From NCBI GenBank assembly GCA_022767345.1, contig JALEOD010000017.1, forward strand, positions 1 to 58,107: 58,107 nucleotides of DNA, written 5' to 3'. The DNA comes from Emergencia sp. (GTDB lineage Bacteria; Bacillota; Clostridia; Peptostreptococcales; Anaerovoracaceae). Shown here one piece after another: positions 32,344 to 40,764 of this stretch. Every line of letters starts with the position of its first letter. The stretch's first letter is position 1. The position numbers and the translations under genes were made by a program. Under the pieces are notes generated by a model that ran no database searches, was not told where the DNA came from, and saw only the letters and a program-made list of their open reading frames with translations.

Positions 32344-33561
32344 TTGAAAAGTAAAGAGTATGTATTGCTGAAAAGTCTATATTATGACCATAAAGAAGAA
32401 TACGAAGAGCTTTATGAGAGCAGATTCAATTCAAGTGAATGCGTGCATCTGAAGTTTTCAATTGCTGATAACCCTGCGTTCTTTTTGGAAACACCTGAAC
32501 TGATGAAGAAGGTGATAGAGATTACCAGACTTGATAAAGAGATTTCTCAATTATCACATGCGCTTCCGGGCATTGCATTGAAACAGTATATAAACAAATG
32601 CCTGATTGATGAAATTGTTATCACGAATAACATAGAAGGCGTTCACAGTACAAGAAAAGAAATCGGAGAAATACTGGATGACCTGGAAGGGAAAAGTAAT
32701 AAAAGATTTTTTGGTTTGGTTAATAAATATATTGCGTTAATTACAGGAAACGATTTATCAATAATGGATAGTCGTGATATCAGAGCCCTTTATGACGAAA
32801 TGTTTCTTTCTGAAATTATTGAGGAAGATCCAAAGGACGCGCCCGATGGGGAGATATTCAGAAAGGATCATGTTGATGTTGTAGATCCGACACAAAAGGT
32901 AATTCATCATGGCTTATATCCGGAGAGTAAAATAGTCAGCAGTATGGACGATGCCATAAATATTCTAAATGATGCCGGTATTGAACCGTTATTCAGGATA
33001 GCAATATTTCATTACTTGTTCGGATATATTCATCCATTCTACAACGGCAATGGCCGTTTGAACAGATTTATAAGCAGCTATTATCTTGCAGACACGCTTG
33101 AATCAATTATGGGATACCGCCTGTCCTACACGATAAAAGAAAACATAAATAAGTATTACAAGAGCTTTAAGATAGTGAATGAAGAAGTGAATAAAGGTGA
33201 TATCACACCGTTTATTTCCACCTATCTCGATTTTATTAAAGAGTCCGCCGTGAATCTGAGAGATGGTCTGGTTGAGAAGGCAAAGAGACTGGAATTGTTT
33301 TCAAAGCAGCTTGCGTCACTGCCATATGGCAATGAGGGAAAATACAACCGCCTGTATTACTGTTTACTGCAGGCTTCTCTGTTTTCAGACATTGGAATTT
33401 CAACCGGGGAACTGTTACAATGCTTAAATGTAAGCAGGCCCACTTTGCAAAAACGTTTGAATGAAATTCATAAGTACAATCTTCTGATTACAGAAAAACG
33501 TGATTTGAATAAATTCTATCAGTTGAATCTAGATACTCTGATGGATATGATTCAAGACTAA
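32344..33561 (+). CDS. Fic-domain protein
   Basis: 405 residues. The central Fic domain holds a full active-site loop, HPFYNGNGRLNRF, so AMP transfer to a protein hydroxyl is chemically possible. Upstream, TNNIEGVHSTRKEI resembles the Fic N-terminal region of large stand-alone Fic proteins. The last 75 residues form a winged helix (GISTGELLQCLNVSRPTLQKRL), so it may bind DNA and regulate its own gene. The start is TTG behind a strong AAAGGAGG. The gene is more AT-rich than its neighbours and sits in a decayed zone, which suggests transfer. Confidence 0.9.
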   Translation: MKSKEYVLLKSLYYDHKEEYEELYESRFNSSECVHLKFSIADNPAFFLETPELMKKVIEITRLDKEISQLSHALPGIALKQYINKCLIDEIVITNNIEGVHSTRKEIGEILDDLEGKSNKRFFGLVNKYIALITGNDLSIMDSRDIRALYDEMFLSEIIEEDPKDAPDGEIFRKDHVDVVDPTQKVIHHGLYPESKIVSSMDDAINILNDAGIEPLFRIAIFHYLFGYIHPFYNGNGRLNRFISSYYLADTLESIMGYRLSYTIKENINKYYKSFKIVNEEVNKGDITPFISTYLDFIKESAVNLRDGLVEKAKRLELFSKQLASLPYGNEGKYNRLYYCLLQASLFSDIGISTGELLQCLNVSRPTLQKRLNEIHKYNLLITEKRDLNKFYQLNLDTLMDMIQD

Positions 33562-36306: not shown

Positions 36307-36350
36307 AGAAAAAGAAAAAGACAGGTTAAAACCTGTCTTTTTCTTTTTCT
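36307..36350 (-). terminator. Terminator of tRNA-Ser
   Basis: A 21-bp perfect inverted repeat (36307-36327 with 36330-36350) rich in GAAAAAG / CTTTTTC, immediately after the CCA end of the tRNA. Confidence 0.85.
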
Positions 36351-36437
36351 GGCGGAGGACATGGGACTCGAACCCACGGGGCTGTTACACCTTACCGCAT
36401 TTCCAATGCGGCTCCTTAGCCACTCGGTCAATCCTCC
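36350..36437 (-). tRNA. tRNA-Ser (anticodon GGA)
   Basis: 88 bases including an encoded CCA. Acceptor GGAGGAT pairs with GTCCTCC, discriminator G. The anticodon stem is CCGCAT/ATGCGG with loop TTGGAAA, giving anticodon GGA. A long variable arm (TAAGGTGTAACAGCCCCGT region) marks class II, and the T-arm reads GTGGGTTCGAGTCCCAT. Confidence 0.97.
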
Positions 36438-37422: not shown

Positions 37423-37451
37423 TTGCAATAGACAGGACAAAGTTTTATAAT
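37423..37451 (+). promoter_or_regulatory. Promoter of the lipoyl operon
   Basis: TTGCAA (37423-37428) and consensus TATAAT (37446-37451) are 17 bases apart, 68 bases before the first start codon. Confidence 0.75.
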
Positions 37452-37519
37452 AGATAATATCTAGTATAGCGTTTCGCAAATAATTAGACCAAATCATTTG
37501 CCAGGAGGTGAACCTTTCC

Positions 37520-38731
37520 ATGAAAGTCATCGTAATCGGCGGCGGTCCTGCCGGCTATGAAGCGGCGCTGGGCCTTGGCCGCAGGGGCGTTGAGACAGTT
37601 TTAATAGAAAAGACCGCCATTGGAGGCATCTGTGTCAACTGCGGCTGCATCCCGACCAGAGTTTATCTGCAGGCAATCAAGTCAGCAGACAATCTGTACC
37701 GAAGCGGTTTCGGGCAGACAAAACTGCCGCCGCAGGCTTTGCGCAGATCGGCAGCGGCAAAGATAGAGCAGCTGGCATATGGTATGACGTATATGCTGCA
37801 GAAGCGGAAAGTGCAGATGATAGAAGGAACAGTCAGCCGGGTAGAAACCGGTAAAGTCACACTGGAAGACGGAACCAGTCTAACCTGCGATAAAATTGTC
37901 ATTGCTTCCGGCTCAGAGGCGGCTCGCGCGGAAACTTTCACCGCGAAACAGCACTTTACAGCGGAACAGCTGCTCACCTTAGAAAATCTGCCGGAACAGC
38001 TGGATATCATCGGCGGTGGCGTGCTGGGCGTGGAGCTTGCGGTGATTTTACAGTATCTGGGCGTGCAGATTACGCTGCACGAATCCATGTCCCGCATTTT
38101 GCCGAAATGGGACCGGGATGTCAGCGCTGCCATGACGGCTTATCTGAAAGGTCTGGGCATACAGATTGAGACAGAGGTAAAATCCGGCGCTTTCGAGAAC
38201 ATGGTATTCTGCTGCGGAAGAAAGCCAAGACTGCCGGAGATAAAGGGAACGCTCCATAAAATTCATCTGATTGGCGACTGCAAGGGCGCACCGTTTACAG
38301 CGGATATCGCGGCGGAGGACGGACGGCGAATCGCATCGCTTTTGACTGGCGGAGGAGCAGAAAACGAAGTAAACAGAACCGCAGCGCCGGGCGCTGTCAC
38401 TGCCCAGTGCATTTTTACGCCCCTTGAGGCAGCGGCAGCGGGCAGCCTTTGCAAAGAGGGCATGGTGGAAAGCAGTCTTTCCACAGATATGATGGCAGGC
38501 GGAGTGATCTTCGGCACTGAGGGTGCCTTTGTAAAGGCGGTCATGGAACAAGAAACTCACATCCTAAGGGGATTTCATGTTGTTTCCCATCTGGCGTCGG
38601 AAGTCATTCAAATGGGTCAGATGGCAATTGCGGCGGAAATGACGGCGGAACAATTTATGACGACAGTATTTCCTCATCCGACGGAGGGAGAACTGCTGAA
38701 GGAAGCTGTAAGAGGTCTGCTATGCGATTAA
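37520..38731 (+). CDS. Compact dihydrolipoamide-dehydrogenase-like flavoprotein
   Basis: 403 residues, against about 450-470 for usual LpdA. In order: FAD Rossmann motif IGGGPAGYEAALGLG; the redox disulfide CxxxxC (C38, C43 in GGICVNCGCIPTR) with an extra cysteine C41 between them; NAD-binding IIGGGVLGVELAVIL; the second FAD motif IHLIGDC; and the dimer domain ending VFPHPTEGE, which keeps the catalytic His-Glu pair of LpdA. It should therefore oxidise or reduce a dithiol such as dihydrolipoyl-lysine with NAD(H). The extra Cys and the short FAD/NAD domains are unusual. ATG 37520 was chosen 11 bases after AGGAGG. It overlaps the ligase gene by 10 bases. Confidence 0.88.
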   Translation: MKVIVIGGGPAGYEAALGLGRRGVETVLIEKTAIGGICVNCGCIPTRVYLQAIKSADNLYRSGFGQTKLPPQALRRSAAAKIEQLAYGMTYMLQKRKVQMIEGTVSRVETGKVTLEDGTSLTCDKIVIASGSEAARAETFTAKQHFTAEQLLTLENLPEQLDIIGGGVLGVELAVILQYLGVQITLHESMSRILPKWDRDVSAAMTAYLKGLGIQIETEVKSGAFENMVFCCGRKPRLPEIKGTLHKIHLIGDCKGAPFTADIAAEDGRRIASLLTGGGAENEVNRTAAPGAVTAQCIFTPLEAAAAGSLCKEGMVESSLSTDMMAGGVIFGTEGAFVKAVMEQETHILRGFHVVSHLASEVIQMGQMAIAAEMTAEQFMTTVFPHPTEGELLKEAVRGLLCD

Positions 38732-39741
38732 TCATTGAGACAAGCCAGAGTCCTAGTCATAATCTGGCAAGAGAAGAGGTGCTCTTCAATCATGTGAAAG
38801 AAGATACCGTTTATCTCTGGCGAAACAGACCTGCGGTCATCATAGGCCGCCATCAGAATACGCTGGCGGAAATAGACGAGGCGGCGGCAGAGGATGGGCA
38901 TATTGAAATCGTGCGGCGGCTTACAGGAGGAGGCGCGGTGTTTCATGACCCGGGCAATATCAACTTTTCCTTCGTCTTCGCCTGCGGCGATTTTGAGAAG
39001 AAAAAAGAGCAGGGGCTGCAGATGATGATCAGCTATCTGCAAAGCCGCGGCGCGACATGTTTTACAAACGGGAGAAACGACATCTGCATGAAGGATTCTG
39101 ACGGCAATGTGGTGAAAATTTGCGGAACTGCCATGACTCAGCAGGAAGAGCGAGGGATTTTTCACGGGTGTATCCTCTTTGACTGCAATCTTGCCGCCAT
39201 GGGGAAAGTGCTGACGCCGGCACGAGAAAAGCTGCATTCCAAGGGAATCTCCTCACTTCGCAGCAGGGTTGCCAATTTGCGCGCGCTGGTGCCCCAGCTT
39301 AAAGATATCAGTAGAGACTGTTTTTTTGAAGAGTGGGGAAAAGACCTTTCGGAAACATGCAGACTGATTGAAGAGGAAAGTACCGCAGAAAAAGCAGAGA
39401 TTGCGGTATTGTTGCAGGAGCGATATGAAAACAGAGCTTGGAATTTTGGGCGGAACCCGGCGTGCACCATGGAGATAAGCCGCAGATTTCCCGTCGGCAC
39501 TGTGATCTTTCACGGGGATATCAAAGGCGGCGTAATCAAAAGCTGCTGCTTCAGCGGAGACTATTTATCCCTGAAAGATTTTGGGAAAATCTCAGCAGGA
39601 CTGCAGGACATAGAATTTTCACGGGACGCCATAGAAAAAGCCTTGCAAGGGATAGAGCTTGAGAAATATTTCGGGACATCGAACCAAGAAGAGATATTGG
39701 ATTTTTTAACAGGAAGGAGAGAGGAATCATGGCATTTGTAA
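38722..39741 (+). CDS. lplA: Lipoate-protein ligase
   Basis: 339 residues. The LplA catalytic domain is complete: YLWRNRPAVIIGRHQN, RRLTGGGAVFHDPGNINFSF, and the active-site Lys block VKICGTAMTQQ, followed by FHGCILFDCNL. A C-terminal accessory domain of about 90 residues follows. It activates lipoate with ATP and attaches it to a lysine of a lipoyl domain; the obvious substrate is the lipoyl protein two genes downstream. It overlaps both neighbours (10 and 13 bases), indicating tight coupling. Confidence 0.93.
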   Translation: MRLIIETSQSPSHNLAREEVLFNHVKEDTVYLWRNRPAVIIGRHQNTLAEIDEAAAEDGHIEIVRRLTGGGAVFHDPGNINFSFVFACGDFEKKKEQGLQMMISYLQSRGATCFTNGRNDICMKDSDGNVVKICGTAMTQQEERGIFHGCILFDCNLAAMGKVLTPAREKLHSKGISSLRSRVANLRALVPQLKDISRDCFFEEWGKDLSETCRLIEEESTAEKAEIAVLLQERYENRAWNFGRNPACTMEISRRFPVGTVIFHGDIKGGVIKSCCFSGDYLSLKDFGKISAGLQDIEFSRDAIEKALQGIELEKYFGTSNQEEILDFLTGRREESWHL

Positions 39742-40316
39742 TGAAAGACGAAGTCTTCGCAAGTTTGCGAGAAGTCTGTAAGAAAATGTATGAAGGGGGA
39801 AAGGTGCTGAAGGCTGACGAAGCGCTGATGGAACTGATGAATATGGAGGGAATTCTCATGCACTGTCCGTATCATCACTTTATCATGCCGGCGGCGCTGC
39901 TGACGATTACGGCGATTCAGGAGAAAAAATCATGGGAAGAACTGGATAACTGGCTTGCAGTGACTGAGGAGCGGGCAAAGACCGTACCGCCGGGATTTTG
40001 CGGTTTTTGCGGCACTTGCGGCGCGGCAGTAGGAATCGGCATTTTTATCAGCGTTTATACCGGCGCAACGCCCCTTGCTGTGGAAACCTGGCAATGGGCC
40101 AATGAGGGAACAGGCAGATGTCTCATCGCCATTTCCAAATATCCGGGGCCTAGATGCTGCAAGAGAACTTCTTTCCTTGCGGCGAAAGAAGGCGTGCCTT
40201 TCATCAATGAAAAGTGCGGGCTGCACATAGAAATTTCAGAGGACATTGCGTGCAGGTATCACAGCAAAAATGCCCAGTGTCTGGAAGAACAATGTCCGTT
40301 TTATAAAGAGGTGTAG
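39729..40316 (+). CDS. DUF5714 cysteine-rich protein
   Basis: 195 residues with twelve cysteines. Notable blocks are CPYHHF (from C46), GFCGFCGTCGAAVGIG (C91, C94, C97), PGPRCCKRTS (C143, C144), and CRYHSKNAQCLEEQCPFY (C175, C184, C189). It resembles proteins annotated as DUF5714, for which I know no assigned activity. The CxxCxxC and CPxHH patterns suggest an Fe-S cluster or metal site, or redox-active thiols. No membrane segment or signal peptide. Being placed between the ligase and the lipoyl protein, it is the best candidate for the enzyme that uses the lipoyl arm. Confidence 0.75.
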   Translation: MAFVMKDEVFASLREVCKKMYEGGKVLKADEALMELMNMEGILMHCPYHHFIMPAALLTITAIQEKKSWEELDNWLAVTEERAKTVPPGFCGFCGTCGAAVGIGIFISVYTGATPLAVETWQWANEGTGRCLIAISKYPGPRCCKRTSFLAAKEGVPFINEKCGLHIEISEDIACRYHSKNAQCLEEQCPFYKEV

Positions 40317-40319
40317 CAT

Positions 40320-40604
40320 ATGAAAAAAGAAATTATCGTGCCGGAAAGTCTGCTTCCTAAACCGCAGCCCTACAGAAACTGCGAATGTATGAAGCAGCCT
40401 ATCGACTTGACCGCAAAGAAGGGAACTATTACCTGGCTGGTGTCGGAAGGCGATGCGGTTACAGAAGGACAGACCGTCTGCGAAGGCGAAGTCGATAAAA
40501 AAACGGTGGAAATCAAAGCGCCGGTCAACGGAATTCTGAAAGAAATCCTCGTTGAAGATGAGCACGTTTTTAAAGCCGGTGATATAGTGGGGTATATCGA
40601 ATAG
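40320..40604 (+). CDS. Free-standing lipoyl-domain protein
   Basis: 94 residues. Residues about 28-94 are a biotinyl/lipoyl fold of the E2 type: WLVSEGDAVTEGQTVCEGEV, then DKKTVEIKAPVNGILKE. The Asp-Lys at 59-60 is in the lipoyl-lysine position (biotin carriers would show Met-Lys-Met). The N-terminal extension has a CEC pair (C21, C23). No E2 catalytic or subunit-binding domain and no GcvH-like length, so it is a carrier rather than part of a large E2. It starts 3 bases after the DUF5714 stop. Confidence 0.88.
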   Translation: MKKEIIVPESLLPKPQPYRNCECMKQPIDLTAKKGTITWLVSEGDAVTEGQTVCEGEVDKKTVEIKAPVNGILKEILVEDEHVFKAGDIVGYIE

Positions 40605-40663
40605 GTTAACTTGGAATTTCCGGGTCTAGGAGGCCGGTTAGGCGAGAAAATCACTAAAAAACA

Positions 40664-40735
40664 AAGCAAGTTTGTCAAATCACCGCAATTGTTTGCTATA
40701 TTACAAACAAAATCTCGATTTCGACAAACTTGCTT
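40664..40735. terminator. Long inverted repeat between convergent operons
   Basis: AAGCAAGTTTGTC (40664-40676) and its exact complement (40723-40735) enclose 46 bases and are followed by TTTTCTATT. It probably ends the lipoyl operon and, on the other strand, the exporter operon. Confidence 0.6.
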
Positions 40736-40764
40736 TTCTATTGCTGCCATCTTAAATGGAGTTA

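Follow-up and report, generated by a model that had tools for sequence, protein, structure and literature searches.

A self-contained lipoyl carrier operon of Emergencia sp., its DUF5714 partner and its link to methylamine demethylation

The window analysed here is a stretch of 58,107 nucleotides from Emergencia sp., and it harbors a four-gene operon encoding a compact flavoprotein resembling dihydrolipoyl dehydrogenase (Lpd), a lipoate-protein ligase (LplA), a DUF5714 protein and a free-standing lipoyl domain. To our knowledge, the uses of lipoate are few: the 2-oxoacid and acetoin dehydrogenases, glycine cleavage, sHdr sulfur oxidation and lipoyl-fed peroxidase systems. The question raised by this locus was which process a small lipoyl carrier with its own ligase may serve. 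The observations of an earlier, sequence-only description of the window (the initial annotation) were confirmed, and its interpretation was partly supported. The link of the module to pyrrolysine-dependent methylamine demethylation was found to be well supported, and the results point to a use of lipoate not described so far. The pathway that it probably serves is encoded outside the window, in a methylamine methyltransferase locus that co-occurs with the operon, is unlinked to it and was missed by the initial annotation.

The operon and the lipoate systems of the genome

All four open reading frames (ORFs) are located on the forward strand. The lpd-like gene (37520..38731, 403 amino acids) overlaps lplA (38722..39741, 339 amino acids) by 10 nucleotides, and the latter overlaps the DUF5714 gene (39729..40316, 195 amino acids) by 13 nucleotides; a gap of 3 nucleotides separates it from the lipoyl ORF (40320..40604, 94 amino acids). 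The overlapping or nearly overlapping four-gene arrangement given in the initial annotation agreed with these coordinates and with the Pfam and NCBIfam matches.

The Lpd-like protein matched Pyr_redox_2 (4e-39) and Pyr_redox_dim (6e-13) and, among the pyridine nucleotide-disulphide oxidoreductases, was closest to lipoamide dehydrogenase, with the redox Cys pair (CVNCGCIPT) and the HPxxxE dyad (HPTEGE) present; its score of 231 was below the equivalog cut-off of TIGR01350 (408.8). The extra Cys within its CxxxxC motif was indeed present, but it was unique to this protein among the nine Lpd proteins with a readable motif (the pattern was not matched in G005, and the genes of G004 and G006 were cut), hence it was dropped as an important feature. 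LplA matched LplA-B_cat (4e-49, PF21948) together with the C-terminal domain Lip_prot_lig_C, and exceeded the cut-off of TIGR00545 (311 vs 280). The carrier matched Biotin_lipoyl (PF00364, 6e-15) and is of the E2 type. Its Lys60, within the sequence E-V-D-K60-K, aligned with the DK of E2 lipoyl domains in an alignment to PDB sequences. The aligned E2 domain lacked the Cys54 of the carrier, and the CxC region (residues 21 and 23) gave no alignment. Among 15 carriers compared, the lipoyl Lys was found in all, and CxC and Cys54 in 14 each.

The whole genome (G000, 2.6 Mb, in which the window is contig C17; G and L numbers denote the genomes and loci compared) was then considered. A single LplA match (PF21948) was detected, inside the operon. 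Three of the four PF00364 domains carry the biotin motif EAMKM, so the operon carrier is the sole lipoyl-type domain. Hence, the only predicted acceptor and the only ligase found in G000 are those of the operon. The E2 catalytic domain PF00198 and the GcvH family PF01597 each gave 0 matches in G000, and no GcvH match exceeded the cut-off in the 13 genus genomes. The absence of E2 and GcvH, claimed for the window, was thereby extended to the genome, and no E2 set that might use the carrier was encoded elsewhere in it. The description of the operon as a self-contained module outside the 2-oxoacid, acetoin and glycine cleavage systems was upheld, and these readings were rejected. The exclusivity belongs to the genome of the window and not to every carrier of the operon, since G005 (E. 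timonensis) encodes, besides an E2, one further LplA and one further lipoyl domain; an E2 was also found in G137. PF00198 matches of 20–33 bits were also obtained in other genomes.

DUF5714 as the partner of the lipoyl carrier

The third protein of the operon matched DUF5714 (PF18978) with an E-value of 1.1e-51 and 175.3 bits, the gathering cut-off being 26.2. A count on the translation agreed with the 12 Cys residues reported earlier. Ten residues (H45, H49, H50, C91, C97, C143, C144, C175, C184 and C189) were invariant in 20 of 20 DUF5714 sequences. The CxxCxxC and CPYHHF motifs emphasized in the initial annotation are present, but the middle Cys of the former and the Cys of the latter vary among relatives. 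An AlphaFold2 model predicted an all-helical protein (predicted local distance difference test score, pLDDT, 91.9), and a DUF5714-lipoyl fusion was modeled with a pLDDT of 90.4 and a predicted template modeling score (pTM) of 0.68. A Foldseek search with the DUF5714 model yielded 104 matches at E≤10 and none at 0.001. The AhpD/CMD family was absent from the Pfam and profile matches of DUF5714 and gave no Foldseek match at E≤0.001. The nearest named NCBIfam family was the metal-binding double selenoprotein MbdU (NF045648; 1.8e-18, 66.7 bits vs a cut-off of 600). DUF5714 may be the catalyst of the module, as was suggested in the initial annotation.

Within the genus, DUF5714, LplA and the lipoyl protein co-occurred in the identical 8 of 13 genomes. 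The remaining five, three of which are 98–99% complete, lacked all three. The gene order was kept in seven genomes, two of them with a cut lpd, and G001 encodes DUF5714 and the lipoyl domain as a fusion. When 393 genomes of the order were screened with a lipoyl-family model, 12 matches of at least 58 bits were obtained, followed by a gap down to 45 bits, and all 12 adjoin or are fused to DUF5714. A sample of the phylum (398 genomes) added one genome, G718, with the lipoyl gene beside DUF5714. The neighborhood comparison proposed in the initial annotation thus revealed a non-random pairing, in 13 of 13 matches. Matches below 58 bits in the order and that of G485 in the phylum (48.6 bits, a 422-amino-acid ORF) were excluded, the length of the ORFs indicating E2- or biotin-type proteins; of these low matches, G062 and G005 were compared with E. 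coli AceF. When DUF5714 was used as the query, 15 of 18 loci contained an adjacent or fused lipoyl domain, 8 of the 15 being from genomes already counted. Fusions were found in six loci (G001, G366, L077, which is cut by the end of its contig, G385, G346 and G390). Outside the genus, LplA was encoded elsewhere in eight of nine lipoyl-positive genomes; a search for it in the ninth, G390, found none.

DUF5714 itself was detected in 86 of the 393 order genomes at E≤0.001 (84 above the cut-off), 12 with the lipoyl partner and 74 without. The DUF5714 of the window belongs to a subfamily that lacks an N-terminal Cys-rich ribbon, and in the tree the 31 ribbon-less sequences, of which 24 are lipoyl-linked, formed a clade apart from the remaining 10 (support 100/99). 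Therefore, the lipoyl pairing holds for the subfamily rather than for DUF5714 at large. The proposal that DUF5714 is a client of the carrier was retained for the former, where it is a constant partner and a single chain with the carrier in six loci, but not for the family as a whole.

Two further settings were noted around DUF5714. A 292-amino-acid protein with a C-terminal GcvH-like domain (L036:2445-3320) is encoded near Lpd, LplA, an ArsM-like methyltransferase and a radical SAM-DUF5714 fusion, and would, by its sequence, be a different lipoyl-type carrier close to DUF5714. Glycyl radical enzymes of two genera are encoded near DUF5714-lipoyl fusions (L028:1-2280, L090:11364-13781 and L092:3365-5653). 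Of these three loci, two also encode a short-chain dehydrogenase/reductase and two an activase; the protein of L090 scored under the HYPD, CutC and sulfopropanediol dehydratase cut-offs.

The methylamine methyltransferase locus and the control elements

In other genera, the neighbors of ribbon-less DUF5714 genes form varying sets, which include a UroD-type methyltransferase, a CobW GTPase, PadR, an SsuA/TauA-like ABC importer, an MttB-family protein, a corrinoid protein with its activase, PylC and PylD. Similarity to proteins of the SAO organometal system was seen in relatives only: the substrate-binding protein of L075 matched SaoX at 4e-6 and the permease of L079 matched SaoP at 1e-22, both below the cut-off. 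When the UroD protein of another genus was used as the query, an ortholog with 74–77% identity was found in exactly the eight of 13 genus genomes that are lipoyl-positive, and none at 1e-20 in the five that are lipoyl-negative.

The UroD gene of the genome studied is located on contig C64 (locus L126, G000:C64:25000-44500), unlinked to the lipoyl operon. The locus encodes corrinoid proteins, mttB and mtbB ORFs ending in TAG, UroD, a corrinoid activase, CobW, PadR and a pyrrolysine cassette composed of PylB, PylC, PylD, PylSc, PylSn and tRNA-Pyl. The same kinds of genes were found in six other genus members (L127, L128 and L130–L133) as far as the contigs extend. In the order sample, all 12 lipoyl-positive genomes were among the 36 UroD-positive of 393 (Fisher p 5e-14, relatedness uncorrected), and per genus all 6 were among 24 of 158 (p 7e-6, likewise uncorrected); a strong UroD ortholog was one of at least 218 bits (two in fragments), the next match scoring 127 bits. 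When the module trait was mapped on a pyruvate carboxylase tree comprising 12 genus genomes (G004, the thirteenth, had no match), it required 4 changes, at least 3 of them on starred branches. Moreover, UroD and the DUF5714-lipoyl pair are directly linked in G366, G235 and G385.

The UroD proteins share several features. A CAAC tail was present in 37 of 37 aligned orthologs; it is thioredoxin-like, with PF13192 above the cut-off in L082 and below it in the protein of G000. Methylcobalamin:coenzyme M methyltransferase is a relative of the UroD protein (4ay7, 1.5e-25; TIGR01463, 2.8e-44, below the cut-off). In 37 of 37 orthologs, Phe replaces the HxC-motif His of 4ay7, which we take to be a zinc ligand, and C239 and C320 were kept in all 37 (L126:8677-10041 and 36 others). 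The orthologs do not conform to the His-Cys-Cys zinc-site rule given in PMC10418091. Judging by sequence, the CAAC-tailed proteins with Phe for His are a distinct subgroup of the MtaA/CmuA family. Emergencia and a novel Anaerovoracaceae genus appear in passages of PMC10653893 among gut genomes with trimethylamine-consuming mttB. As Emergencia is named there with mttB, the module may bear on the removal of trimethylamine in the gut.

A promoter and a closing inverted repeat had been assigned to the operon, and both were recovered. The promoter-like element TTGCAA-17-TATAAT (37423..37451, forward strand) is a consensus match, a pattern found at 7 sites vs 3.2 expected. The terminator-like hairpin (40663..40736, forward strand) has arms of 17 nucleotides (40663-40679 and 40720-40736) with 94% complementarity and an RNA fold z of -6.05; 0 of 200 shuffles were equally stable. 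Right behind the -10 element is an operator-like palindrome of 13 nucleotides, TAGA-N5-TCTA (37451..37463, forward strand), which occurs once in the whole window. It lies just 5' of lpd in all five genus operons whose upstream DNA could be compared (that of the window, G011, G005, G009 and G007), a count that omits the cut operons of G004 and G006 and G001 with less than 50 nucleotides upstream. Two matches elsewhere in L028 (G001) fall in coding regions, and a scan of 7 mtt loci produced a single match, within the PylD ORF of L131.

It was also observed that DUF5714 ends in TAG (40314-40316), that the lipoyl ORF downstream is in frame with it and that the genome has tRNA-Pyl. A pyrrolysine read-through fusion of DUF5714 and the lipoyl domain at 40314-40319 is conceivable from the sequence, although only weakly so: the stop codon is TAG in the window, G004, G006 and G009, TAA in G011 and TGA in G007, and in G005, where the frame of the lipoyl ORF differs, it is TAA. 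Among 49 long ORFs of the window, taken by a greedy pick, 14 terminate in TAG. Other features upstream of the operon are a Fic/DOC family protein (32344-33561; PF02661, 1e-12) and a tRNA-Ser (GGA) on the reverse strand (36350-36437).

Possible role and comparison with known systems

We infer the reaction carried out by the module to be that of a dedicated lipoyl dithiol relay serving corrinoid-dependent methylamine demethylation, a tentative proposal to which a probability of about 0.4 was assigned. LplA would load lipoate onto Lys60 of the small carrier, and the Lpd-like flavoprotein, as is expected from its family, would couple the lipoyl disulfide/dithiol to NAD(H). The lipoyl arm would act on DUF5714, its gene neighbor and, in six loci, part of the same chain. 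DUF5714, a predicted all-helical His/Cys protein, would most likely hand electrons from thiol to thiol to the CAAC tail of UroD, a client found alongside MttB and MtbB, the pyrrolysine methylamine methyltransferases. The order NADH, Lpd, lipoyl, DUF5714 and CAAC tail is compatible with the components present and is paralleled by AhpD, which passes lipoyl electrons to AhpC. In favor of the proposal are the confinement of the ligase and lipoyl-type domain detected in G000 to the operon, the lack of E2 and GcvH matches there, the pairing of the carrier with DUF5714, the co-occurrence with UroD and its locus, and the CAAC tail kept in 37 of 37 orthologs.

Several results weigh against the proposed relay. 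A PDB relative of DUF5714 was sought by fold and by sequence and none was found. The putative redox-active family PF09719 (C_GCAxxG_C_C) speaks for the relay in that, at E≤1, it matched nine of the 20 DUF5714 sequences (6e-6 at best), and DUF5714 may perhaps bear a weak, remote likeness to it at the sequence level; against this, the DUF5714 of the window was outside the nine, and a DUF5714 profile compared with one C_GCAxxG_C_C protein reached a probability of 1.3%. An operator common to the lipoyl operon and the mtt loci or promoters was sought and not found, and the independent-pairs test rests on 3 pairs (p 0.25). The lipoyl protein was missing from 24 of the 36 UroD-positive genomes, and 16 loci from such genomes had no lipoyl, DUF5714 or Lpd match at 1e-8; the UroD protein can therefore function without the module. 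Related DUF5714 proteins without a lipoyl partner occur in L082, L085 and L087. Finally, the module keeps other company in Schaedlerella-type loci. The Lpd-DUF5714-lipoyl trio stands beside HGD-D-like proteins and a DVU_1556-like methyltransferase in L081, L083 and L086, where, as far as the contigs extend, a double-cubane-like protein, an acyl-CoA dehydratase activase and TrsS-like radical SAM proteins are also encoded, with LplA in L081. In G021, genes for LplA, Lpd, an ArsM-like methyltransferase and a protein with a GcvH-like C-terminal domain accompany a radical SAM-DUF5714 fusion. Both the Schaedlerella-type and the G021 setting point to a recurrent association of DUF5714 with lipoyl carriers in the context of methyl transfer and thiol chemistry.

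Among the alternatives, a role in metal or metalloid handling is rather unlikely. The His/Cys cluster of DUF5714 would bind metal and the lipoyl dithiol would chelate it, maturing or protecting methyltransferases together with the CobW GTPase, PadR and the SsuA/TauA-like importer. The similarity to MbdU (66.7 bits vs a cut-off of 600), the invariant H45, H49 and H50 with seven Cys, and the recurrence of CobW, PadR and the ABC importer near ribbon-less DUF5714 are in line with such a role. However, it does not by itself require an NAD-linked Lpd, and CobW is co-located with UroD also in genomes with no DUF5714 match (e.g., G317, G322, G368, G133, G122, G089 and G200), so CobW goes with the methyltransferase and not with DUF5714.

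We also considered, as a doubtful alternative, that the dihydrolipoyl carrier is a thiol methyl acceptor, a protein-bound stand-in for coenzyme M, to which the UroD enzyme would transfer the methylamine-derived methyl group from the corrinoid protein, DUF5714 handling the S-methyl group. This would be consistent with the relatedness of UroD to methylcobalamin:coenzyme M methyltransferase (4ay7; TIGR01463 below the cut-off), with the constant DUF5714-lipoyl pairing and with the ten ORFs scanned in part of the mtt locus of G000, among which no tetrahydrofolate methyltransferase was named. The replacement of the zinc-site His by Phe in all 37 orthologs, the lack of the carrier in 24 UroD-positive genomes and the MetF- and MetH-like ORFs of the G366 cluster (assigned by reading) argue against it.

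It is improbable that the two loci were merely gained and lost together by lifestyle, the lipoyl module being functionally unrelated to demethylation. They are unlinked in G000 and share no common operator, and the Schaedlerella-type and E. callanderi loci have the module with no mtt gene within the stretch examined. Nevertheless, they form one cluster in G366, G235 and G385, in L079, L092 and L077 it is CobW/PadR or activase genes that adjoin the module, and the joint gain or loss was repeated within the genus.

A bolder form of the methyl-acceptor explanation is very improbable: a bacterial protein-bound coenzyme M substitute, in which the methyl group of tri- or dimethylamine would pass via the corrinoid and UroD-thioredoxin proteins to the dihydrolipoyl thiol, DUF5714 would release it reductively or pass it on, and Lpd with NADH would re-reduce the lipoyl disulfide. 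If true, it would represent a methyl-reducing electron sink outside archaea. An orphan remnant of a 2-oxoacid/acetoin dehydrogenase or glycine cleavage system, or an sHdr-type sulfur carrier, is scarcely credible: the lipoyl domain is E2-type by sequence, but the genome has neither an E2 catalytic domain nor GcvH, the carrier is not GcvH-like, its Cys54 has no counterpart in the aligned E2 domain and a ligase is co-encoded; no search aimed at sHdr genes was made.

No paper on DUF5714 was found in the literature searched. By title and abstract, no such module emerged from searches that paired lipoyl groups with corrinoids, CobW, Emergencia or pyrrolysine, although one could conceivably be described in work on selenoprotein neighborhoods. 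MbdU has a region similar to DUF5714, but the score is far under the family cut-off and selenocysteine, which is placed in a CU motif in the part of PMC13188914 that describes MbdU, does not occur here.

The Type 1 mlp clusters of Kountz and Balskus, as presented in the main text of PMC10418091, resemble the demethylation locus in their UroD-superfamily methyltransferase, corrinoid protein, activase and occurrence in anaerobes. The locus described here differs in having one close UroD with a CAAC tail, Phe for the zinc-site His and pyrrolysine methylamine enzymes. A Type 1 MGC comprises at least Mlp2 and Mlp3 with a corrinoid protein and activase, and G000 gave a single UroD match at 1e-20. 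The words lipoyl, lipoate and DUF5714 occur 0 times in that main text.

The LbpA protein of sHdr systems is GcvH-like. As described in the main text of PMC6067878, which names DUF5714 0 times, it is a free-standing lipoyl protein that has its own ligase and lies outside central carbon metabolism, as is the carrier studied here. LbpA is tied to Hdr-like proteins, whereas the present carrier, which matches PF00364 in a genome with no PF01597 match, is E2-type and tied to DUF5714.

The AhpD fold is helical. Passages of PMC8945050 describe lipoyl proteins that feed electrons to AhpD, and the Lpd-lipoyl-AhpD-AhpC system shares with the proposed relay an NADH-driven lipoyl protein, a Cys adaptor and a thioredoxin-fold client, although the electron transfer is a proposal in the present case. 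Both Lpd (by similarity, below the equivalog cut-off) and a lipoyl carrier are present here. The differences are a free-standing carrier with its own ligase, a DUF5714 protein with no detected relation to AhpD and a corrinoid methyltransferase as the proposed client. A module tracking pyrrolysine-dependent methylamine demethylation with an uncharacterised DUF5714 partner would add one more use of lipoate to the few that are known, and it provides DUF5714 with a concrete assay.

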